Under the pieces are notes generated by a model. The model searched no databases. It worked only from the letters and a program-made list of their open reading frames with translations, and was not told the origin of the DNA. A stretch of 64,000 bases of DNA from Acidobacteria bacterium SCN 69-37 (GTDB lineage Bacteria > Acidobacteriota > Vicinamibacteria > Vicinamibacterales > SCN-69-37), in assembly GCA_001724025.1 (NCBI GenBank), contig MEDJ01000004.1, positions 62,001 to 126,000 on the forward strand. The letters run 5' to 3'. Positions 24,184-35,940 of the stretch are shown here, piece after piece (position 1 is the first letter of the stretch; each line of letters begins with the position of its first letter). A program made the position numbers and the translations under genes.

Positions 24184-25182
24184 TCAGTCCCACCCGGCCA
24201 GTTCGCGCGTGACGATCCGGGTCATCCCGTCCACCCAGGCCTCGTTCACGTTGAGGCAGGGGATGAGCCGGTAATCGCGTCCGCCGGCGTGACGGTACTG
24301 CTCCCGCCCCGTGATGCCGATCTCCTCGAGGGTCTCGAGACAGTCGGCCAGGAATCCGGGGCAGAACACGGCCAGGCGTTCGAATCCGCGCCCGGCCAGT
24401 TGCTTCAGCGTCTGGTCGGTGTACGGGCGCAGCCATTCCTCGCGGCCGAAAAGCGACTGATACGACATCGTCAATCGATCCGGCGGCCAGTCGAGCGCCG
24501 CCGCAAACGCGCGCGTGGTCGCCGTGCAGTGCTCGGGATAGGGATCGCCCAGTTCGGCATAGCGCTTCGGAATGCCGTGAAAGCTGAGGACGATGTGATC
24601 GGGTACCCAGTCGACGAAGGCCCGGCGCGCCGAGTCGACCAGTGCGTCGATGTAGGCCGGGTCGTCGGGATAGGGCGGCACCACGCGGAGCGGCGACACC
24701 ACGCGTTCGGGCATCAGGACCCGCATGACGTCCTCGAGGCTCGACCCGGTGGTGGCGCTGGCGTATTGCGGGTACATCGGGAAAGCGAGGAAGCGATTGC
24801 AGCCGCGCGCGCGCAGGTCGGCGACCGCTCGTTCGGTCGACGGATTGCCGTATCGCATGGCCACGGCCACGCAGGGAGCGCCGTCGCCCATCGTGTCGGC
24901 GAGCTGCGCCTCGAGGGCCCGCGCCTGGGCCTCGGACGTGACGAGCAGCGGCGAGCCCTCGGGACTCCAGACCGATGCATACAGCCGGGCCGACCGGGCC
25001 GGCCGCGTCACGAGCACGACGCCATTGAGGATCGCCCACCAGAGCGGGCGGAACGTGTCGACCACGCGCACGTCCGACAGGAACTGACGGAGATACCGCC
25101 GCAACGCGGGCGTCGTGGGGGCATCGGGGGTGCCGAGCTGGAGCAGCAGAATGCCGGTTCGCGACCGTGCGGACTGAGGCAT
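24184..25182 (-). CDS. hemH: Ferrochelatase
   Basis: Inserts Fe2+ into protoporphyrin IX, the last step of heme synthesis. The 332-residue protein carries GILLLQLGTPDAP at the N-terminus and the signature LSFHGIPKRYAELGDPYPEHC with the metal-binding histidine. The C-terminal VFCPGFLADCLETLEEIG carries the conserved glutamates. A GTG directly before the ATG at 25182 is an alternative start. It is divergent from the hemA operon across a 99-bp region that contains the putative HemR-like box, so both transcripts could be controlled together. The stop lies two bases from a dispersed palindrome. Confidence 0.95.
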   Translation of the reverse strand: MPQSARSRTGILLLQLGTPDAPTTPALRRYLRQFLSDVRVVDTFRPLWWAILNGVVLVTRPARSARLYASVWSPEGSPLLVTSEAQARALEAQLADTMGDGAPCVAVAMRYGNPSTERAVADLRARGCNRFLAFPMYPQYASATTGSSLEDVMRVLMPERVVSPLRVVPPYPDDPAYIDALVDSARRAFVDWVPDHIVLSFHGIPKRYAELGDPYPEHCTATTRAFAAALDWPPDRLTMSYQSLFGREEWLRPYTDQTLKQLAGRGFERLAVFCPGFLADCLETLEEIGITGREQYRHAGGRDYRLIPCLNVNEAWVDGMTRIVTRELAGWD

Positions 25183-25234
25183 CACGCTAGCCTATCATCG
25201 CACCACGCCGACGCTTGGTGAGACGGTTTTCAAT

Positions 25235-25250
25235 AGACAAAGCAGTGACA
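25235..25250 (+). promoter_or_regulatory. Direct repeat resembling the HemR box, between hemH and hemA
   Basis: AGACA (25235-25239), six bases, then TGACA (25246-25250). The 11-base period equals one DNA turn, as expected for a head-to-tail OmpR/PhoB-family dimer. I recall the Leptospira HemR box as TGACA-N6-TGACA; this site differs at one base. It overlaps the putative -35 of hemA and lies in the only divergent promoter of the heme locus. The locus encodes an OmpR-family regulator itself. Binding is inferred, not shown. Confidence 0.5.
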
Positions 25251-25275
25251 ATTCACCTGATGCGGCCGATAGAAT
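25245..25275 (+). promoter_or_regulatory. Putative hemA promoter, leaderless
   Basis: GTGACA (25245-25250) as -35 and TAGAAT (25270-25275) as -10, with 19 bases between (18 if the -35 is read as TGACAA). The -10 ends six bases before the GTG start codon of hemA, so transcription should begin at or near the start codon. No ribosome site is present. Confidence 0.5.
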
Positions 25276-25281
25276 GGCCGC

Positions 25282-26133
25282 GTGCGACTCGCCCTGATCC
25301 ACCGTTCCCCAGGCGAGGATCCACCACCGGTCGACTCCACGGCGTGGCGGACCTGCCTGCGTGAAGTCCATTTCGTTCCCAGCCACCGGATTCCCTACGA
25401 GCACGAAGTCCTGACGGACGCGGATGCGTACGCCCTGCTGCTCGAAATCGTCTGTGGGCTGCGGTCACCGTTGATCGGCGAGACCGAGGTCCAGGCGCAG
25501 TTCAAGGAGTTCCTGGCGTCGGCGGCGGCCCGCGAGAACCGCTGGCTGCGGCAGGTGGGACAGCGGATTCTCGGCGACGCCAAGCACATTCGACACAAGT
25601 ACCTGCAGGGATTCGGGGCGCACTCGTATGGCAGGCTCGCCGCGCGGTACCTCCAGGGCCAGCGGCTGGCGGTCATTGGTACCGGGGCACTGGCGTCGCA
25701 GGTCGTCCAGGTCGCCCCCGACACGACCGTCGTCGATGTCTGGGGCCGCAGTTCGGAACGCGTCCTGCCCACCCGCCCCGCCGGATTGACGTTCTCGCTC
25801 CTGGCCGATGCCGGGCAGCAGGCCGGCACCCGCACACAGTCGACGACGCTCGTCATTGCCGCACCCGTATGGTCAGCAGACCTAGATCGCGTAATCAGGT
25901 GCTATAAGGATCTCGTCAACGTCGTCGACCTTCGATCGACAGACCAACAGACGCCAATCATCGCTCCCGTGCCAACCGTCCGCCTGGGCGATCTGCTGGC
26001 GGACGCCGCGAAGTCCGACACGGGCGGCGCGCCGCGGGTGCGCGCGGCGCGGACCGATATCCGGAGCCTGGCTGTCGCGTTTGCCGGCCGCGAGGAATTC
26101 CGTCCCTTCGGTTGGGACGACGTATGCGCGTGA
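25282..26133 (+). CDS. hemA: Short, divergent glutamyl-tRNA reductase
   Basis: First enzyme of C5 tetrapyrrole synthesis: NADPH reduction of glutamyl-tRNA to glutamate-1-semialdehyde. The diagnostic motif is GLRSPLIGETEVQAQFKEF (family: SLxxGExQIxGQVK). Upstream, RTCLREVHF aligns with STCNRTELY, keeping a cysteine at the nucleophile position. A Rossmann segment follows (LAVIGTGALASQVVQV). At 283 residues it is far below the usual 410-430: the N-terminal catalytic domain is trimmed and the C-terminal dimerisation domain is nearly absent. No frameshift is evident, and hemC overlaps its 3' end by ten bases, so it looks functional. Start GTG; leaderless promoter. Position at the head of the hem operon supports the call. 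Confidence 0.8.
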   Translation: MRLALIHRSPGEDPPPVDSTAWRTCLREVHFVPSHRIPYEHEVLTDADAYALLLEIVCGLRSPLIGETEVQAQFKEFLASAAARENRWLRQVGQRILGDAKHIRHKYLQGFGAHSYGRLAARYLQGQRLAVIGTGALASQVVQVAPDTTVVDVWGRSSERVLPTRPAGLTFSLLADAGQQAGTRTQSTTLVIAAPVWSADLDRVIRCYKDLVNVVDLRSTDQQTPIIAPVPTVRLGDLLADAAKSDTGGAPRVRAARTDIRSLAVAFAGREEFRPFGWDDVCA

Positions 26134-27602
26134 GGCTGCTCAGCAGGGGCAGCGACCTTGCACGACTTCAAACGCGGCTCGTCGAGCAGGCCCTGCGCAC
26201 CTCTGATCCTCAGCTCGACATCGAAAAGATCGTCCGCTCGTCCCTTGGCGATCGCGACAGTCGAATAGAACTCTGGCAATCAACCGAAAAAGGGCTATTC
26301 ACAAGCGACCTGTCCGGCGCTCTCCTGGCTGACGACGCCGACGTGGCGGTTCACTCGTGGAAAGATCTGCCTGTCGAAGGATTCGCGGGGACTGTCGTTG
26401 CGGCCACGCTCGAACGGGCGGATCCCCGGGATGTGCTGCTCGTCCGCGCAGACGTGCTTGCCGCACGCCCCGCGGTTCTCGACGTCCTGACATCCTCCCC
26501 GAGGCGCACCTTCCAACTGGCGGAGAGCCTGCCAGGCCTTCTGCCGTGGCCGATTACGGGCATTGAACCAAAATCCGTTCGCGGCAACATCCCGACGAGG
26601 CTTCAACGTCTGGCCGAGGGGCAGGGGCACGCGCTCGTCGTCGCCAAGGCGGCACTGGACCGGCTGCTGTCGCCGGCATCGGAGCCGGCCACACGCGACA
26701 CGATCCGGCACCTGCTCGCGGGCTTCCACTGGACCGTCCTGCCGCTGCGGGAGTTCCCGACCGCGCCGGCGCAGGGAGCCCTGGCGCTCGAGGTTGCCAC
26801 GGCGCGGCAGGACATCCGGGCGGCCGTCGCGCGCATCTCGCACGAGGCCACGCACCGGGCGGTGGACGCCGAGCGCCAGATCCTGGCGGGTTATGGCGGC
26901 GGCTGTCACGAGGCCATCGGGGCGACGGTGCTCGTGCGCGAGTACGGCGTGGTCACGAGCGTGCGCGGCCGTGCGGCCTCGGGCGAGCGCTTCACCCGCT
27001 GGACGCTCGATCCCGCCGGTCCGCTGCCGCCACCGGCCGAATCGGCGGCGGCCATCTGGCCCCGTCCCGGCGAGCGGGACGGTGCCGTCCGCCGGCCGCT
27101 CGACGTTCGCCTGCCGTCGGACGACAGGGGCTGGTGGGTGGCCCGCGCGGAAGCGGTCCCCAACGGCGTGCAGCCGGATCCGTCCCGCCTCGTCTGGGCT
27201 GCCGGCACGCGCACCTGGCGACGACTGGCCGCGCGCGGCGTCTGGGTCCACGGCTGCTCGGACGGCCTGGGTGACGGCGAGGCGCCGGCGCTCGATACGC
27301 TTGCCGGCCGCACGGTCGCCTGGCATCGTCTGACGCACGCCCGCAGCGGCGCGGCGGACGCGTTCGCCACGTACACGGTGGAGTCGCCGCTCCCCGACGA
27401 TCTGCCGTCGCGGACGCACTTCTTCTGGACCAGCGGTACGCTGTTCCTCGACGCGCTGGCACGCCATCCGGAGATTCGCGGGGCCTGGCACGGGTTCGGC
27501 CCGGGGCACACGTCGCGGGTCGTCCGCGACACCATCACGGATGGCTCGCGCCTGAGCGTCTGGCTGGACTACGAACAATGGCATCAACACATGAGTCGAT
27601 GA
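26124..27602 (+). CDS. hemC: Porphobilinogen deaminase fused to a uroporphyrinogen-III synthase-like domain
   Basis: A 492-residue two-domain enzyme. Residues 1 to about 300 are HemC: RLLSRGSDLARLQTRLVEQAL, VHSWKDLP, SVRGNIPTRL, TAPAQGALALE, and the dipyrromethane-cofactor cysteine in GGGCHEAIGATV. Residues about 330-490 form a separate domain (WWVARAEA..., ALDTLAGRTVAWHRL, THFFWTSGTLFLDAL, WHGFGPGHTSRVVRD) that follows the order of HemD, including the substrate-binding Ser/Thr and GPxT-like segments. No separate hemD is present in the operon. The start overlaps hemA by ten bases; a GTG two codons later is an alternative. HemD assignment is weaker than HemC because that family is poorly conserved. 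Confidence 0.88.
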   Translation: MRVRLLSRGSDLARLQTRLVEQALRTSDPQLDIEKIVRSSLGDRDSRIELWQSTEKGLFTSDLSGALLADDADVAVHSWKDLPVEGFAGTVVAATLERADPRDVLLVRADVLAARPAVLDVLTSSPRRTFQLAESLPGLLPWPITGIEPKSVRGNIPTRLQRLAEGQGHALVVAKAALDRLLSPASEPATRDTIRHLLAGFHWTVLPLREFPTAPAQGALALEVATARQDIRAAVARISHEATHRAVDAERQILAGYGGGCHEAIGATVLVREYGVVTSVRGRAASGERFTRWTLDPAGPLPPPAESAAAIWPRPGERDGAVRRPLDVRLPSDDRGWWVARAEAVPNGVQPDPSRLVWAAGTRTWRRLAARGVWVHGCSDGLGDGEAPALDTLAGRTVAWHRLTHARSGAADAFATYTVESPLPDDLPSRTHFFWTSGTLFLDALARHPEIRGAWHGFGPGHTSRVVRDTITDGSRLSVWLDYEQWHQHMSR

Positions 27603-28570
27603 TCACCGCCGCGCCGTGGTCGCGGCTGCGGCTGCGGCGCACCGAACACCTGCGGGACCTGCTGGCCGAGACCACGTTCGGCAGCGCGCAGCTGATCCAG
27701 CCGGTCTTCGTCGTCGAGGACCTGATCGGCAGCGAGCCGGTGCCGGGGCTGGGCGATACCGCGCGGCACGGACGGGCCGCGGCCCTCGAATCGATGGCGC
27801 GCGATCTCGCCGCGGGCGTCCGCCACTTCATCCTCTTCCCCGTCCCGTCGTCGAAGGGGACGCGGGCGTTGTCGTTCTCGCACGTGGCCTCGACGGTGGA
27901 GGCCATCAAGCGCGAGTTCGGCGACGCGCTGCACCTCTGGGTCGACATCTGCCTGTGCTCGTCGACCACGCACGGGCACTGCGCGATTCTCGACGACGAG
28001 GGCGCGATCGATCTGGATGCGACGCTCGAGGCGCTCGCGCAGGCCGCGGTGGATGCAGCCTCGGCCGGCGCCGACGGGGTCAGCCCGAGCGACATGATGG
28101 ATGGGCGGGTGGCGCACATCCGTGCGGCGCTCGATGCGGCCGGGCACCGGCAGGTGCCCATCATGAGCTACAGCACGAAGTTCGCGAGCCAGTTCTACGG
28201 TCCGTTCCGCGGCGCGGCCGATTCGGCACCGCAGCACGGCAACCGACGGCACTACCAGATCGACGTCCGGGCCCGTCGCGATGCCATTGCCTCGTCGATC
28301 CGGTGCGCTGACGAGGGCGCGGATCTGCTGATGGTGAAGCCGGCGATGACGTCGCTCGACCTGATCGGGCCGATCGGCGAGATCACCGGCCTCGGCGTGG
28401 GGGCGTATCAGGTCAGCGGCGAGTACGCGAGCCTGGTGGCGCTGGCCGAGAAGGGCTTCGCGGAGTTCGACGCCGCGCTGCTCGAAACGCTGCACGTGCT
28501 GCGGCGGGCCGGCGCCGCGTTCATCATCACGTATGGCGCGCGGCGCGCGCGGGCGCTGGGACTGTCATGA
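27599..28570 (+). CDS. hemB: Delta-aminolevulinic acid dehydratase (porphobilinogen synthase)
   Basis: Condenses two 5-aminolevulinates to porphobilinogen. The Schiff-base lysines are in MSYSTKFASQFYGPFR and LMVKPAM. The metal-site region is VDICLCSSTTHGHC, with cysteines typical of a zinc-dependent enzyme. DGVSPSDMMDGRV is the family signature. The ATG at 27599 overlaps the hemC stop (ATGA) and gives 323 residues, the usual length; an in-frame ATG at 27578 would add seven residues. It is followed by hemL with another ATGA overlap. Confidence 0.95.
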   Translation: MITAAPWSRLRLRRTEHLRDLLAETTFGSAQLIQPVFVVEDLIGSEPVPGLGDTARHGRAAALESMARDLAAGVRHFILFPVPSSKGTRALSFSHVASTVEAIKREFGDALHLWVDICLCSSTTHGHCAILDDEGAIDLDATLEALAQAAVDAASAGADGVSPSDMMDGRVAHIRAALDAAGHRQVPIMSYSTKFASQFYGPFRGAADSAPQHGNRRHYQIDVRARRDAIASSIRCADEGADLLMVKPAMTSLDLIGPIGEITGLGVGAYQVSGEYASLVALAEKGFAEFDAALLETLHVLRRAGAAFIITYGARRARALGLS

Positions 28571-29844
28571 CGAATCCGGCCCTCTATGCCCGCGCGATCC
28601 AGACCGCCCCCGGCGGCGTGCACAGCCCCGTGCGCGCGTTCACGAGCGTGGGCGGCACGCCGGTCTTCGTCCAGTCGGCCGCCGGCGCGCGACTGACGGA
28701 CGTCGAGGGGCGCCGATACATCGACTTCTGCCAGAGCTTCGGGCCGCTCATCCTCGGTCACCGTGACGAGACCGTCCGCGCGGCGGTCATCGCGGCAGTC
28801 GACGACGGGTGGTCGTACGGGGCGTGCGAACCGTACTCGCTCGAGTTGGCGGAATGGATCCTGGCGCGCGTGCCGTGGGTGGAGCGGATCCGCTTCGTGT
28901 CGTCGGGCACCGAGGCGGTCATGTCGGCGCTGCGCGTCGCGCGCGCGGCCACCGGACGTGGGCGCATCCTGAAGTTCGAGGGCTGCTATCACGGCCACGC
29001 CGACAACCTGCTCGTGCAGGCCGGCAGCGGGCTGGCCGGCCCTGTGGCGGCGAGCAGCGCGGGACTGCCGGCCGACATGATTGCCAGCACGCTCGTCGCG
29101 CCGCTCGACGACGAATCGGCGATCGATGCGATCTTCGACGCGCACGGTGCCGACATTGCCGCGGTCATCGTGGAACCGGTGCCGGCCAATTACGGGTTGC
29201 TGCCGCCGCGGCGCGCGTGGCTCGCGCACCTGGCGGCGCGTGCCCGCGCGGCGGGCACGCTGCTCATCCTCGACGAAGTCATCACCGGGTTCCGCAGCGG
29301 CGTGCGCGGTGCGGCGGACGTCTACGGCATCACGCCCGATCTCGTCTGCTACGGCAAGGTGATCGGCGGCGGCTTTCCCGTGGGCGCGTATGCCGGGCGC
29401 GCGGACCTGATGCGGATGGTGGCGCCCGAAGGGCCTGTCTACCAGGCGGGGACGCTCAGCGCGAACCCCGTGGGCATGCGCGCGGGCCTGGCCACGCTGC
29501 AGCGCGTGGAGGCGATCGACGGGTGGGCCGCACTCGAGACGCGCACGGCCACCTTCGTCGACGCTCTCGGCACGCGGCTGCGCGCGATCGTGCCGGATCT
29601 GATCATCGTCAGGCACGCGTCGATCTTCTGGCTGTGCCGGACGTCGGCGCCCGTGCGTCAGCCGCAGCGGATTCCGTCGGCGCATGCCGAGTGGTACCGA
29701 CGGTTCTTCCACGCGGCGCTGGCGCGCGGGGTCTATCTGCCGCCCTCGGCGTATGAAGTCTGCTTCCTCTCGATCGCGCACGACGACGCGGTCCTCGCGG
29801 AGGCGGCCGAGGCCCTGACCGCGGCGGCCGGAGACGTGGGCTGA
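28567..29844 (+). CDS. hemL: Glutamate-1-semialdehyde 2,1-aminomutase
   Basis: PLP enzyme converting glutamate-1-semialdehyde to 5-aminolevulinate, the partner of HemA in the C5 pathway. It has 425 residues. The PLP lysine is K264 in CYGKVIGGGFPVGAYAG, and the Asp that contacts the pyridine nitrogen is in LLILDEVITGFRSG. PGGVHSPVRAFTSVGG is the usual N-terminal segment. It overlaps the hemB stop by four bases, and the histidine kinase gene starts two bases after its stop. Its presence confirms a glutamate-based, not glycine-based, route. Confidence 0.96.
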   Translation: MTNPALYARAIQTAPGGVHSPVRAFTSVGGTPVFVQSAAGARLTDVEGRRYIDFCQSFGPLILGHRDETVRAAVIAAVDDGWSYGACEPYSLELAEWILARVPWVERIRFVSSGTEAVMSALRVARAATGRGRILKFEGCYHGHADNLLVQAGSGLAGPVAASSAGLPADMIASTLVAPLDDESAIDAIFDAHGADIAAVIVEPVPANYGLLPPRRAWLAHLAARARAAGTLLILDEVITGFRSGVRGAADVYGITPDLVCYGKVIGGGFPVGAYAGRADLMRMVAPEGPVYQAGTLSANPVGMRAGLATLQRVEAIDGWAALETRTATFVDALGTRLRAIVPDLIIVRHASIFWLCRTSAPVRQPQRIPSAHAEWYRRFFHAALARGVYLPPSAYEVCFLSIAHDDAVLAEAAEALTAAAGDVG

Positions 29845-29845
29845 C

Positions 29846-30697
29846 ATGCCGGCGATGCCCGCGTCGCGCACCCGGATGCACTACATCGCGGCCGTCGCGT
29901 GGCTGACGTTCACGGTCTCGCTCGCGTCGTGGTGGTGGATCATCGGGCTGTCGATGCCGACGCGGCACCGGATGTTCCTGTGGGAAGGCGCCACGTTCAT
30001 CCTGGTGCTGGTGGGCGGCGGCGTGGCGATTCTCATCGCCATCCGTCGTGAAGATCGGCGGCGCCAGGCGCTCGAGATGTTCTTCATGTCGTTCACGCAC
30101 GACCTGAAGACCTCGCTCGCGAGCGTGCAGTTGCAGGCCGAGGGGCTGCGGGCGGATCAGGAAGATCAGCCGGATCCGGCCACGCGCCGGCCGATCGATC
30201 GGTTGCTGCAGGATGTCGTGCGGCTGCAGATCCAGCTCGAGAATTCGCTCTTCGTCGCGCAGCCCGACGGCCGGCTGCTGCAGGAGCGCCTGGACGTGGT
30301 CGCGGCGATTGAACGGCAGCGCGAGGACTGGCCGAGGCTGGGCGTCGACGTCCACGGCTCGGGCACGGTGCTGGCCGATGCGCGGGCGCTCGACACGGTG
30401 CTGCGCAACGTGCTGCAGAACGCCGTCCTGCACGGTGCGGCAACCGCGGTCGAGATCCGCGTCGATCGCGTGCCCGGCGACATCGTCCGGCTCGCGATCG
30501 AGGACAATGGATCGGGTGTCGACGCGGCGAGCCTGGCGCAGCTCGGCGAGGCCTTTTCGCGGCCGAGCGAGACGAGCGGCACCGGCATGGGCCTGCACGT
30601 GAGCAGCCGGCTGGTGGCGCGGATGGGCGGCGCGATGCGGTTCGGCATGGCCGGTGACGGTCTGCAGGTGACGATCGAGCTGCCGGAGGCCCGGTGA
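29846..30697 (+). CDS. Sensor histidine kinase inside the heme operon (HemK-like)
   Basis: A 283-residue kinase. Two membrane segments (about 13-35 and 43-66) are joined by a very short loop, so there is no periplasmic sensor domain and sensing is probably within or at the membrane. The dimerisation helix carries H85 in SFTHDLKTSLASVQL, a variant H-box lacking the usual Pro. The ATPase domain has an N box (VLRNVLQNAVLHG), G1 (EDNGSGVD) and G2 (GTGMGLHVSSRL). It lies between hemL and hemE and overlaps the regulator gene by one base. That position matches the HemKR pair I recall from the Leptospira hem locus; heme-related sensing is inferred. Confidence 0.88.
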   Translation: MPAMPASRTRMHYIAAVAWLTFTVSLASWWWIIGLSMPTRHRMFLWEGATFILVLVGGGVAILIAIRREDRRRQALEMFFMSFTHDLKTSLASVQLQAEGLRADQEDQPDPATRRPIDRLLQDVVRLQIQLENSLFVAQPDGRLLQERLDVVAAIERQREDWPRLGVDVHGSGTVLADARALDTVLRNVLQNAVLHGAATAVEIRVDRVPGDIVRLAIEDNGSGVDAASLAQLGEAFSRPSETSGTGMGLHVSSRLVARMGGAMRFGMAGDGLQVTIELPEAR

Positions 30698-31374
30698 TGG
30701 CGCGCATCCTGCTGGTCGAGGACGAGCCCTCGCTCGGGCGCACGCTGTGCGAGCGGCTGCAGAAGGAGAAGTACGAGGTGACGTGGGCGCAGACGGTCGC
30801 GGCCGCCGACGCGGCGCTCGCATCGAGCCGCTGGGACATCGCCATCGTCGACGTGAAGCTGCCCGATGGATCGGGATTCGGCCTCGCGCGGCAGATCAAG
30901 CGATCGTCGCTCACGCCGGTGATGTTCATGACGGCGCTGAATTCGGCCGAGAACCGGCTCGAAGGATTCGAGATCGGCGCCGACGAGTACCTGCCGAAGC
31001 CGTTTCACCTGAAGGAATTCATCCTGCGGGTGCGGCACGTGCTGACGACGCAGCGCGTGCCGGAGGTGCTGCACGCCCGGGGCCGGCAGATCGATCTGGC
31101 GGCGCTGTCGGTCGTGGGATCCGACGGCGTCCGCGTGTTCCTGCAGGTGCGCGACGCGCGCGTGCTGAAGCTGCTGATCGCGTCGGCGCCGAGCGCCGTC
31201 GATCGATCCGAGATCCTCGATCGGGTCTGGGGTCGCGATCAGTATCCGACGACGCGCGCCGTGGACAACGCAATCGTGCGGATTAGACAGGCTCTGCAGG
31301 ACGACAGCGGCGAACTGATCCGATCGGTTCGCGGTATTGGCTACCAGTGGACACTGGAGCCCGGGGAATCGTAA
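30697..31374 (+). CDS. OmpR/PhoB-family response regulator inside the heme operon (HemR-like)
   Basis: A 225-residue regulator with a receiver domain (1-120): acidic pair in VEDEPSLG, phosphorylated D52 in IAIVDVKLPDGSG, Thr in FMTALNS, and Lys in YLPKPFHLKEF. A winged-helix DNA-binding domain follows (about 130-222; LDRVWGRDQYPTTRAVDNAIVRIRQAL, IRSVRGIGYQW). GGAGG lies 8 bases before the ATG, and the start overlaps the kinase stop as TGATG. Its expected head-to-tail binding mode matches the direct repeat found between hemH and hemA. The stop overlaps the hemE start (TAATG). Confidence 0.92.
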   Translation: MARILLVEDEPSLGRTLCERLQKEKYEVTWAQTVAAADAALASSRWDIAIVDVKLPDGSGFGLARQIKRSSLTPVMFMTALNSAENRLEGFEIGADEYLPKPFHLKEFILRVRHVLTTQRVPEVLHARGRQIDLAALSVVGSDGVRVFLQVRDARVLKLLIASAPSAVDRSEILDRVWGRDQYPTTRAVDNAIVRIRQALQDDSGELIRSVRGIGYQWTLEPGES

Positions 31375-32399
31375 TGGGACGTTTCGTGGATGCGCTGGCC
31401 GGCACGCGACAGGCCGTGCCGCCAATCTGGTTCATGCGGCAGGCGGGCCGGTATCAGCAGTCGTACCAGGCCAAGCGCCGCAAGTACCGCTTCGAGCAGT
31501 TGTGCCGCGAGCCGCACCTGGCGGCGGCCGTCGCGCTCGATGCGGTGCAGGAGTTCGATTTCGACGCGGCGATCCTGTTCAGCGATCTGTTGTTCCCGCT
31601 GAACGCGCTGGGATTCCCGCTGAAGTACGACGACAGCGGTCCGAAGCTCGGGCGCCGGCTCGACGAGGCGGGACTCGGCCGGCTGCGGGATCTCGATCGC
31701 GCCGGCGACGCGCTGGCGTTCCAGGCCGAGGCCGTCGCGCTCACGCGCTACGCGCTGGCGCCGTCGACGGGCCTGATCGGCTTCGTCGGCGGGCCGTGGA
31801 CGCTGTTCGTCTACGCGATGGAGGGCACGCACACGGGTGCGCTCGTCCGGCCCAAGGTGTCGATGGGCCTGTACCGCAAGTTCGCGCGGATCCTGGTGCC
31901 GCTGCTCGCGCGCGCGATTCGCGAGCAGCTCGAGGCCGGCGCGGACGTGGTGATGATTTTCGATACGGCCGCGGGCGAGCTGTCGCCAGCCGCGTTCCAG
32001 CAGCACATTGCGCCGGATCTGCGCCGGCTGGCCGCCACGCAGCCCGGCCGCCTCGGCTACTATGCGCGCGGCATCCAGGCCGCGCACCTCGGCGGTCCGA
32101 CGAGCGCCGGCATCGGGCCGTGGGCCGGCCTGGGCGTCGACTGGCGGTGGGATCTGACCGACGTGCTGGCCGCGCGCGGCCGCACGGGATTCGTGCAGGG
32201 CAACTTCGATCCGGCGCTGCTGCACCTGACGGGCACGGCCCTGCGGCGTGCCATCGATGAGTACCTGGCGCCAATCGTGGCGCTGCCGGCCGCGGCGCGC
32301 CGCGGCTGGGTGTGTGGCCTGGGGCACGGCGTACTCCCGGGCACCCCGGAGGCCAGCGTCCGGGATTTCGTTCGCGTCGTACGGAGGCGCCTGTCATGA
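31374..32399 (+). CDS. hemE: Uroporphyrinogen decarboxylase
   Basis: Decarboxylates uroporphyrinogen III to coproporphyrinogen III. It has 341 residues, with the N-terminal signature PPIWFMRQAGRYQQSYQ, FDAAILFSDLLFPLNALG (catalytic Asp region), GFVGGPWTLFVYAMEG and a C-terminal GLGHGVLPGTPEASV. The start overlaps the response-regulator stop by one base; GGGGAA is a few bases upstream. hemN follows with an ATGA overlap. Confidence 0.96.
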   Translation: MGRFVDALAGTRQAVPPIWFMRQAGRYQQSYQAKRRKYRFEQLCREPHLAAAVALDAVQEFDFDAAILFSDLLFPLNALGFPLKYDDSGPKLGRRLDEAGLGRLRDLDRAGDALAFQAEAVALTRYALAPSTGLIGFVGGPWTLFVYAMEGTHTGALVRPKVSMGLYRKFARILVPLLARAIREQLEAGADVVMIFDTAAGELSPAAFQQHIAPDLRRLAATQPGRLGYYARGIQAAHLGGPTSAGIGPWAGLGVDWRWDLTDVLAARGRTGFVQGNFDPALLHLTGTALRRAIDEYLAPIVALPAAARRGWVCGLGHGVLPGTPEASVRDFVRVVRRRLS

Positions 32400-33745
32400 C
32401 TCTCTCGGACCTCCTCGAAAAGTACGACGTCCCCGTCCCGCGGTACACGAGCTATCCGACGGTGCCGCAGTGGACCGAGCCGCCCACGACCGATCAGTGG
32501 GTGGCGGCGCTCGAACGCGCCAGTGCGGCGCCCGACGCGGCGCTCGCCCTGTACGTGCACCTGCCGTTCTGCGAGTCGCTGTGTTCGTTCTGCGGCTGCA
32601 ACAACGTCATCACGCGCGATCACGGCCGCGAGGCGCCGTACATCGACCTGGTGCTGGCCGAACTGCGCGCGTATCTGGCGCGCGTGCCGTCGCTGGCCAG
32701 GCAGCCGTTCCAGCAGCTGCACCTGGGCGGTGGCACACCGACGTTCCTCTCGGCCGAGTCGCTCACGCGGCTGGTCACCGGGCTCTACGAGCACCTGCCG
32801 CAGCGGACCGGCGCGTTCGAGGGATCGATCGAGGTCGATCCGCGCGTGACGAACACGGCACAGCTCGAGGCGCTGCGCGCGCTCGGCTTCCGTCGCGTCT
32901 CACTCGGCGTGCAGGACATCGACCCGCACGTCCAGCACCTGGTCAACCGCATCCAGCCGCTGGAGATGACCGAGCAGATCTGTGTCGAGGCGCGCCGGCT
33001 GGACTACGAGTCGATCAACATCGACCTCATCTACGGCCTGCCCGGTCAGACGACGGAATCGATTGCCGCCCTGGCGCGCGAGATCCTGCGGCTGTCGCCG
33101 GATCGCCTCGCGGTCTACAGCTTCGCGAAGGTGCCGTGGATCAAGCCGCAGCAGCGGCGGTTCAAGGACGACCAGATTCCGGCGGGTGCCGCCAAGCGCG
33201 CGCTGTACGAAGCGATCCGCGAGCCGCTGGTGGCCGGCGGGTACCTCGAGATCGGGCTCGATCATTTCGCGAAGCCCGGCGATGCGCTCGCCCGGGTGGC
33301 CGACGAGGGACGGCTGCACCGGAACTTCATGGGCTACACGGAGGTCAGGACGACGACGCTGCTCGGGCTGGGCGTGAGTGCGATTTCCGAGACGCCCGGC
33401 TGCTATCACCAGAACGAGAAGGTGCTGCCGACGTACGAGAAGCGCGTGCTCGCCGGTGAAATCCCGACGCTGCGCGGGCACATCCTCTCCGACGAGGACC
33501 GGCGCCGGCGCGACCTGATCTTCAGCCTGATGACGCGGTTCCGCGTGCCGGTCGGCGACGGCGACATTGCGGCCGACGAGGCCATGGTCCGTCAGCTCGT
33601 CGCCGACGGCCTGATGACGATCGACAACGGCATGGTGGTGGTCTCGGATCTCGGGCGGCCGTTCCTGCGGAACGTTGCCGCCGTGTTCGACGCGCACCTG
33701 GTACACCAGGACCTTTCGCGTCCCACCTATTCGACATCGGCATGA
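32396..33745 (+). CDS. hemN: Oxygen-independent coproporphyrinogen III dehydrogenase
   Basis: Radical-SAM enzyme converting coproporphyrinogen III to protoporphyrinogen IX. The 449-residue protein has the [4Fe-4S] motif C59-x3-C63-x2-C66 followed by GC (C68), preceded by ALYVHLPFCES and followed by LHLGGGTPTFL. The N-terminal YDVPVPRYTSYPT tail is characteristic of true HemN rather than the HemW paralogue. SLGVQDIDPHVQ and IDLIYGLPGQT are further family segments. It overlaps hemE and hemG by four bases each. No oxygen-dependent hemF is seen in the window. Confidence 0.95.
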   Translation: MTLSDLLEKYDVPVPRYTSYPTVPQWTEPPTTDQWVAALERASAAPDAALALYVHLPFCESLCSFCGCNNVITRDHGREAPYIDLVLAELRAYLARVPSLARQPFQQLHLGGGTPTFLSAESLTRLVTGLYEHLPQRTGAFEGSIEVDPRVTNTAQLEALRALGFRRVSLGVQDIDPHVQHLVNRIQPLEMTEQICVEARRLDYESINIDLIYGLPGQTTESIAALAREILRLSPDRLAVYSFAKVPWIKPQQRRFKDDQIPAGAAKRALYEAIREPLVAGGYLEIGLDHFAKPGDALARVADEGRLHRNFMGYTEVRTTTLLGLGVSAISETPGCYHQNEKVLPTYEKRVLAGEIPTLRGHILSDEDRRRRDLIFSLMTRFRVPVGDGDIAADEAMVRQLVADGLMTIDNGMVVVSDLGRPFLRNVAAVFDAHLVHQDLSRPTYSTSA

Positions 33746-34920
33746 AGACGGCGCGCGTGGTCGGCGCCGGGCTGAGCGGGCTGGCCGTGGCGGCGTGCCT
33801 GGCCGACAAGGGCCACCAGGTCGAGGTCATCGAGGCCGCCGACGGGCCCGGCGGCCTCATCGGCACGCAGACCACGCCGCACGGGCCCGCCGAGCGGGCG
33901 GCCAACGCGTTCGTCTGGACGCCGACGACCGAGGCGTGGTTCGCGCGGCTCGGGCTGACCGCCGAACTGCCGCTGCCCACCGCGCGGGCCCGCTACATCT
34001 ACCGCGACGGCCGGCCGCGACGCTGGCCGCTCACGCGGGGCGAGACGACGGGCCTGCTGACGCGACTGGCCTGGACGTACGCGACACGGCGGCTGAAGCC
34101 GCGCGCCGACGAATCGGTGGCCGCGTTCGCCACGCGTGCCGCGGGTCCGGCCGCGGCGCGCTGGTTCGCCTCGCCGGCCATGCAGGGCGTCTATGCCGTG
34201 CCCGCCGATCAGCTGGCCGCCGCTGCCATCTTCGGCCCACGCCGGCGATCGCGCGGTCCGAGTGCGTCACCGCGCGGCGGCATGGGTCAGTTCATCGAGC
34301 GCCTCTACGACGATCTGCGCACGCGCGGCGTGACGTTCTCCTTCAACGCGGCCGCTGACTTCGTCGGCGGCCACGTCCCGACGGTCATCTGCACGAATGC
34401 GCCGGCGGCCGCCCGGCTCGTGGCCCCGCACGCCCCGGGCCTGGCCGAGGCCATCGGCCGCATCGGCATGACCGGCATCGAGACCGCGACGGCGTTCTAC
34501 GATCCGTGTCCTGACGATCTGCAGGGATTCGGCGTCCTGTTCCCGCGCGAGGTCGGCGTCGGGGCTCTCGGCGTCCTGTTCAACTCGAGCATCTTCCGCG
34601 GGCGCGGACCGTATCGATCCGAGACCTGGATCTATGCCGTCGACGATCGCACGCCGTCGGCGGCGTCGGCGGCCGATCGCGTCACAGCCGATCGCGAGGT
34701 CCTGGTCGGCCGGCGCACGCCACCGCTGGCGGTCTATGCCACGCGCCGGCCCGCGGCCCTGCCCATTTACGATCGGCATGTGCTGGCAATCGCCCCGCAC
34801 CTCCAGGAACTGCCGCCCTGGCTGGCGCTGTCGGGCAACTACCTGGGCCAGATCGGCGTCTCGACGCTGCTCGCGCGCGCCGAGACGACCGTGGACCAGC
34901 TCGTGGCGCGCACGTCGTGA
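33742..34920 (+). CDS. hemG: FAD-dependent protoporphyrinogen oxidase (HemY-type)
   Basis: A 392-residue flavoprotein with an N-terminal FAD dinucleotide fold (RVVGAGLSGLAVAACLADKGHQVEVIEAADGPGGL). A C-terminal FAD-contact segment (LPPWLALSGNYLGQIGVSTLL) is also typical of protoporphyrinogen oxidases. It is shorter than usual (about 450-470) and divergent in the middle, so homology alone would give only an amine-oxidase/PPO superfamily call. Its place after hemN with a four-base overlap makes protoporphyrinogen oxidase the natural role. With hemH it completes the classical protoporphyrin route. Confidence 0.85.
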   Translation: MKTARVVGAGLSGLAVAACLADKGHQVEVIEAADGPGGLIGTQTTPHGPAERAANAFVWTPTTEAWFARLGLTAELPLPTARARYIYRDGRPRRWPLTRGETTGLLTRLAWTYATRRLKPRADESVAAFATRAAGPAAARWFASPAMQGVYAVPADQLAAAAIFGPRRRSRGPSASPRGGMGQFIERLYDDLRTRGVTFSFNAAADFVGGHVPTVICTNAPAAARLVAPHAPGLAEAIGRIGMTGIETATAFYDPCPDDLQGFGVLFPREVGVGALGVLFNSSIFRGRGPYRSETWIYAVDDRTPSAASAADRVTADREVLVGRRTPPLAVYATRRPAALPIYDRHVLAIAPHLQELPPWLALSGNYLGQIGVSTLLARAETTVDQLVARTS

Positions 34921-34935
34921 TACAACGGCTGCCTG

Positions 34936-35940
34936 ATGCGTGATGTCCTGATCATCGGCGCCGGCCCGGTCGGCCTGGCGTGCGCCATTGCCGCCACGCG
35001 CGAAGGACTGTCCGCGCGCGTCCTCGACAAGGGAACGCTCGTCAACTCGATTGTCGGCTACCCGTCGATGATGGAGTTCTTCTCGACGCCGGAGTTGATC
35101 GAGATCGGCGGCTACCCGTTCGCGATTCCCCGATACAAGCCGACGCGCGAGGATGCGATCGAGTACTACCGGAAGGTGGCCGCGCGCGAATCGCTCGACG
35201 TGCGGCTCTACGAGCGCGTCCTCGAGGTGCGCGGCACGCGCGGCGATTTCACCGTCGTCACGTCGAAGGGGGAACACCGGGCCCGACATGTGGTCATTGC
35301 CACGGGCTTCTTCGATCAGGCGACGATGCTCGACGTGCCGGGCGAGACGCTGCCGAAGGTCACGCACTATTACAGGGAACCGTACGGGTACGTCGGCCAG
35401 CAGGTCGCGGTGGTGGGCGCGCGCAACTCGGCCGCGAAGGCCGCGCTCGACTGCCATCGGCACGGCGCGCACGTGACGCTGATCGTGCGATCGTCGTCAC
35501 TGTCGGATCGGATCAAGTACTGGATTCGTCCCGATATCGAGAACCGCATCAAGGAAGGCAGCATCACGGCGTATTTCGACTCGACGATCGAGGCGATTGC
35601 CGAGACGACGATCGCGATCAGGACGCCCGCGGGACGCCGGGAGATCGCCAACGACTGGGTGCTGGCGATGACCGGCTACCGGCCCGACTTCGCCTTCCTC
35701 GACGCGCTGGGCGTGGCGTGCGACGGCACACCGCAGCGGGCGCCGATTCACGACGAGGCGACGTTCGAAACCGCGCGGGCGGGCGTCTACATTGCCGGCA
35801 CCGTGTGCGGTGGCTACGACACGGGCCGATGGTTCATCGAGAACGGCCGGTTCCACGCGCGGCAGATTGCCGCGCACATCGCCAGGGGCCGCGTCGAGCC
35901 CGTACGGTTCGACGACGTGCACTGGAAGACGGCCGAGTAG
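34936..35940 (+). CDS. ypdA: YpdA-type bacillithiol-disulfide reductase
   Basis: A 334-residue FAD/NADPH-binding oxidoreductase of the YpdA family, known in Firmicutes to reduce oxidised bacillithiol. The FAD fold is IIGAGPVGLACAIAATREGL, and the NADPH fold is AVVGARNSAAKAALDCHRHGA. LVNSIVGYPSMMEFFSTPELIEIG is the family-specific N-terminal stretch, and VCGGYDTGRWFIENGR is near the C-terminus. There is no thioredoxin-reductase CxxC. It starts 15 bases after hemG, probably as the last gene of the heme operon, which links thiol homeostasis to heme synthesis. No bshA/B/C gene is in the window, so the thiol itself is inferred. Confidence 0.85.
   Translation: MRDVLIIGAGPVGLACAIAATREGLSARVLDKGTLVNSIVGYPSMMEFFSTPELIEIGGYPFAIPRYKPTREDAIEYYRKVAARESLDVRLYERVLEVRGTRGDFTVVTSKGEHRARHVVIATGFFDQATMLDVPGETLPKVTHYYREPYGYVGQQVAVVGARNSAAKAALDCHRHGAHVTLIVRSSSLSDRIKYWIRPDIENRIKEGSITAYFDSTIEAIAETTIAIRTPAGRREIANDWVLAMTGYRPDFAFLDALGVACDGTPQRAPIHDEATFETARAGVYIAGTVCGGYDTGRWFIENGRFHARQIAAHIARGRVEPVRFDDVHWKTAE

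Follow-up and report, generated by a model that had tools for sequence, protein, structure and literature searches.

A hem-box upstream of hemA is very probably the DNA switch of the HemKR two-component system in an acidobacterium

Does the short direct repeat between the divergent hemH and hemA genes of this acidobacterium control heme synthesis, or is it a chance resemblance to a site known from Leptospira? Work on Leptospira biflexa has shown that HemR, when phosphorylated, binds TGACA[N6]TGACA in front of hemA, hmuO and a small number of further genes and that it activates hemA (PMC11426443). In the 64-kb stretch of DNA analysed here (the window), the hemH-hemA spacer (25186-25281) carries AGACAAAGCAGTGACA at 25235-25250 on the + strand, which the initial annotation had taken for a HemR-like box departing from the leptospiral one by a single base and keeping its exact 11-base period. 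Both particulars hold, and the reading as a whole is supported by the conservation of the site and by the orthology of the regulator. We think, from the comparison of sequences described below, that 25235-25250 is very probably the DNA switch of HemKR.

Counting sites in one genome is not sufficient to decide this. Matches to TGACA-N6-TGACA with at most one mismatch number two in the 64-kb window, where 1.8 are expected (chance level), and 81 in the whole genome, versus 42 for the reversed pattern; we therefore turned to conservation across genomes. We searched 84,980 species genomes with an alignment of HemR, without using the box, and obtained 80 loci; they belong mainly to Acidobacteriota, Bdellovibrionota and Leptospiraceae, and most have the same gene cluster. 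At every one of the 53 evaluable loci, i.e. those with upstream sequence present, the box stands before hemA with at most one mismatch (44 of them perfect); these loci span the same three groups and include related genomes that are not independent of each other. The identity of HemA to that of the window drops to about 26-38% among the loci, and the flanks of the box are not alignable. Moreover, an unbiased count of all pentamer direct repeats with spacers of 3 to 12 places TGACA-N6-TGACA at the top (43 of the 54 regions examined), with no unrelated repeat in more than 5 of them, and none of 28 upstream regions of ordinary hemA genes from the same class comes within two mismatches of the box on either strand. 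An extended motif, DGACAWWNNNRTGACAMWT, which was derived from 54 hemA promoters with the window's own among them, is present at the site under discussion and nowhere else in the 4.43-Mb genome.

Conservation of the two pentamers in relatives, which the initial annotation had proposed as a check, was examined directly: they are kept in close relatives as well as across three phyla. The HemA of the window was found in 8 of 193 genomes searched in the class, and all eight have the box before hemA with at most one mismatch; one close relative (G093) even has an identical AGACA half-site. When the six closest hemH-hemA spacers are simply aligned with MAFFT, the boxes end up in the wrong places, since the spacers cannot be aligned outside them; a comparison anchored on the box was used instead. 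Three more Acidobacteriota genomes, found via HemA and not via HemR, carry the box (one locus, L169, was left out of this set as it resembles the L031 genome again), and seven loci with a canonical HemA are without it. Perfect boxes precede hemA in Bdellovibrio bacteriovorus and in Leptospira interrogans. In five Leptospiraceae loci hemKR lies apart from hemA and a perfect box is still found before hemA, so that the association does not result from mere gene proximity. A Dadabacteria MAG has a perfect TGACAAAACCGTGACA between hem genes, in an orientation unfit for a simple upstream box, and a hemKR pair elsewhere in its genome.

The 54 promoters, chosen by a box within one mismatch (a choice that excluded no evaluable locus), give the consensus (A)TGACA-[AT]-[AT]-N-C-N-[GA]-TGACA-[AC]-[TA]-T. 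Positions G2, A3, C4, A5, T12, G13, A14 and C15 are invariant in all 54, and the spacer is constrained as well (A/T at 7, C at 9, A/G at 11). The first base is T in 45 promoters and A, C or G in the other nine, so the AGACA of the window is natural variation; the mismatch that had been pointed out is real, but it can hardly be called a deviation at a commonly varying position. Hexamers resembling a -10 are most frequent 19-20 nt downstream of the box, and a standard sigma-70 promoter with 16-18 nt spacing was not found. The proposed overlap with the -35 of hemA is correct as to position; with the predicted -10 of the window 19 nt away and no standard promoter found, the box replaces a -35 element. 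This arrangement suggests that the hemA promoter is activator-dependent. The distance from the end of the box to the start codon is 31 or 32 nt in 28 of 53 loci, and only 4 of 46 short-gap loci have a Shine-Dalgarno-like sequence; the two observations together suggest that the hemA mRNA is usually leaderless, with its 5' end close to the start codon, which in the window is the GTG at 25282.

The presence of an OmpR-family regulator gene in the operon, also claimed at the outset, is confirmed, and we can be more specific: reciprocal best match, synteny and the recognition helix all identify this regulator as the ortholog of leptospiral HemR. Over its length it shares 45% identity with L. interrogans HemR, with 202 bits in the reciprocal best match versus 100 for the next paralog (193 versus 117 bits across plasmid records). 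The phosphorylation-site residues E9, D10, D53, T80 and K102 are all present. In the recognition helix, R188, D191 and N192 are invariant in 83 of 83 HemR homologs; N192 is absent from ten paralogs of the same genome and presumably from E. coli PhoB. The best sequence match in the PDB is 4q7e, which we take to be the receiver domain of L. biflexa HemR.

The genes of the locus (Table 1) form an operon, hemA-C/D-B-L-HK-RR-E-N-G, with a divergent hemH, in a gene order identical to that of L. interrogans. No GlutR_dimer domain was found in the whole genome, nor was a heme oxygenase of PF01126, the family proposed as a target of repression by HemR in Leptospira. The short HemA proteins have a conserved C-terminal GW(D/E)DLCA tail with a cysteine near the C-terminus (FGWEELTCPAF in L. 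interrogans), which could serve to bind heme or a partner. On the hemH side (25183-25230, - strand), TAGGCT/TACGCT recurs just before the hemH start in relatives and is possibly the hemH -10; the hem-box lies too far upstream of hemH to serve as its -35. A Pyr_redox_3 flavoprotein gene (34936-35940) follows hemG, and tblastn found no counterpart of it in the 18-kb locus of a relative of the same genus.

Table 1. Features of the hem locus (positions in the window)
Feature	Position	Strand	Remark
hem-box AGACA-AAGCAG-TGACA	25235..25250	+	predicted binding site of HemR dimer
-10 element TAGAAT of hemA promoter, predicted	25270..25275	+	19 nt after box
hemH, ferrochelatase	24184..25185	-	divergent from box
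hemA, short glutamyl-tRNA reductase, no GlutR_dimer domain	25282..26133	+	GTG start at predicted transcription start
hemC/hemD fusion, porphobilinogen deaminase/uroporphyrinogen synthase	26112..27602	+	same fusion in L. interrogans
hemB, porphobilinogen synthase	27578..28570	+	
hemL, glutamate-1-semialdehyde aminomutase	28567..29844	+	
hemK, membrane histidine kinase	29846..30697	+	very short external loop; H85, T89 (His+4) conserved
hemR, OmpR-family response regulator	30694..31374	+	ortholog of leptospiral HemR
hemE, uroporphyrinogen decarboxylase	31347..32399	+	
hemN, oxygen-independent coproporphyrinogen III oxidase	32312..33745	+	
hemG-type protoporphyrinogen oxidase	33742..34920	+	

We consider that 25235-25250 is in all likelihood a functional hem-box, at which a dimer of phosphorylated HemR, bound in the -35 region, would drive an autoregulated hem operon. 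HemK would phosphorylate HemR, both being encoded inside the operon; the phosphorylated dimer would bind the two TGACA half-sites and, most likely, recruit RNA polymerase to the -10 element 19-20 nt downstream. The transcript, usually leaderless, would begin with the start codon of hemA or close to it and extend over hemC/D, B, L, K, R, E, N and G, and the autoregulation would be positive, since hemKR sits in the operon that HemR switches on. A heme precursor or product would then turn HemK into a phosphatase and switch the circuit off, as the supply of 5-aminolevulinic acid (ALA) does in L. biflexa by way of the phosphatase activity of HemK (PMC11426443).

The most serious objection concerns the sign of the regulation. 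HemR bound to the box could mask the -35 region and so repress hemA, a mechanism proposed for leptospiral hmuO, the leptospiral HemR being described as both activator and repressor (PMC11426443), and a protein bound where this box lies could indeed block RNA polymerase. We nevertheless find repression unlikely, because the half-site nearest the -10 is too far from it for a good constitutive promoter, because the lack of a standard sigma-70 promoter fits an activator-dependent one, and because phosphorylated HemR activates hemA in L. biflexa.

The other alternatives do without HemR. The pho box has half-sites TGTCA-N6-TGTCA, and PhoB binds such 11-bp direct repeats near the -35 by its winged helix. 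The opposite strand of the hem-box reads just this, the same pentamer with the same period, and HemR shares the OmpR/PhoB-type winged helix, so that one might assign the box to another OmpR-family regulator such as PhoB. This we regard as very improbable: the box tracks HemKR, being present at every evaluable hemA locus of HemKR genomes and absent from ordinary hemA genes of the same class, and the two systems differ in orientation relative to the promoter, in spacer consensus and in the recognition helix (at N192 and V195 for HemR). For a Pho regulon member one would look for a PhoB-type helix and a site independent of HemKR, whereas the recognition helix of HemR differs from that of PhoB and hemA genes without HemKR lack the site. 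It could also be argued that only the second TGACA matters, as the core of a sigma-70 -35 consensus followed by a -10, the first pentamer being accidental; but four bases of that pentamer are invariant in all promoters, the spacer is under constraint too and the distance to the -10 is not the 16-18 nt of an ordinary promoter, which makes this reading scarcely credible. Finally, one-mismatch matches are common enough (about two per 64-kb window) for a chance match without function to be imagined, but the probability left to it is next to nil given the persistence of the box at this position in three phyla, the single occurrence of the extended pattern in the genome, and the contradiction by the repeat scan, by the evaluable loci and by the ordinary hemA regions.

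Granting activation by HemR, one may ask what HemK perceives. The phospho-accepting H85 and T89 (His+4) are each present in 79 of 79 HemK homologs; the Thr at His+4 is used for phosphatase activity, and HemK has no typical sensor domain (PMC11426443). Residues of the two membrane helices are invariant or nearly so, with W29-W30 in the first helix and M43-x3-E47-G48 at the start of the second, and since a typical sensor domain is lacking, we propose W29, W30, M43, E47 and G48 as candidates for the signal site. The loop between the helices has about 10 residues in the window; that of L. interrogans is clearly longer. Because some lineages have almost no external loop, sensing inside the membrane can be envisaged. 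The broadest form of the hypothesis, i.e. that HemKR is an old circuit common to Acidobacteriota, Bdellovibrionota and Leptospiraceae, in which one box drives a single, mostly leaderless hem operon and HemK senses a tetrapyrrole or a precursor inside the membrane through the W29-W30/M43-x3-E47-G48 motif, is put forward here as a possibility and not as an expectation.

How far is this the system already known? HemKR itself is; as far as the searched literature shows, the novelty lies in its reach across phyla and in the invariant membrane motif of HemK. With the HemKR of Leptospira, the window shares the sequence and spacing of the box, its position before hemA, the family and orthology of the regulator, and a kinase with conserved His and His+4 Thr. 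The kinase and regulator genes of L. interrogans lie between hemL and hemE (PMC2266917), and the window agrees with that species in the linkage of hemKR to heme genes, the order hemA-C/D-B-L-K-R-E-N-G and the short HemA, the loop of HemK being the point of difference. It also differs from Leptospira in phylum, in the first base of the box (A, not T), in the absence of a heme oxygenase arm and in having the extended box only once; a wider regulon with hmuO is a property of L. biflexa HemKR and not a defining one. In L. biflexa, hemA shows no significant change when hemKR is deleted and the cells are in standard medium (PMC11426443), which indicates that control of hemA is composite there. This counts against our reading of the site, as do the one-base departure of the window's box from the consensus and the missing part of the leptospiral regulon. 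For B. bacteriovorus, PMC2266917 mentions gene linkage alone, that of two-component genes to the hem cluster, as 'data not shown'; its cluster, hemA-C/D-L-K-R-E-N-G-H, resembles ours and has its own box as described above, the difference being that hemB is outside the operon and divergent. No description of hem-boxes outside Leptospira was found in the literature, in a search that did not cover Morero 2014, which treats the leptospiral HemKR/hem-box according to its citation in PMC11426443 and may mention other phyla.

Here HemR seems to act locally, on its own operon. Of six relatives searched, two have the extended pattern once each, and TGACAWWNNNRTGACA has zero to four matches in each of twelve genomes of other groups, mostly the hemA box. 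The extra boxes in other genomes, at six loci, revealed no coherent heme-related second target. The only perfect short box in the genome of the window (C3:21620-21635) lies about 76 nt upstream of a gene for a secreted carboxypeptidase-regulatory-like protein, and was rejected as a second target for want of a fitting -10 and of a coherent target.

Judging from these comparisons, at least three bacterial phyla share this switch together with its operon and regulator. HemKR, so far studied in a spirochete alone, would become a circuit of general importance for heme control, its operator, regulator and operon all being near-invariant in three phyla, and would predict how heme synthesis is regulated in acidobacteria with little or no genetics. 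The homologs also provide a large comparative data set on what HemK senses, with the conserved membrane residues as obvious candidates, and B. bacteriovorus is a tractable, non-pathogenic organism in which HemKR could be tested.

In the HemR tree, the Leptospiraceae form one supported group and the Acidobacteriota two well-supported ones (the order of the window with Thermoanaerobaculia, and Blastocatellia with relatives); Bdellovibrionota account for most of the diversity outside these groups, and the deep branches are without resolution. The distribution in Acidobacteriota is patchy, a short HemA being found at strong E-values in 9 of 396 genomes, and the HemR tree does not separate transfer from repeated loss. 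Several near-complete genomes from the family of the window's organism (G102, G105 and others; family f1, genus g5) have neither a short nor a canonical glutamyl-tRNA reductase and may belong to heme auxotrophs. Another genome, G110, has a hemH-hemA-hemK-hemR-hemE-hemN-hemG cluster without hemC/D, B and L on one contig (C33) and a canonical HemA on another (C21), so that two HemA types are present in one genome.
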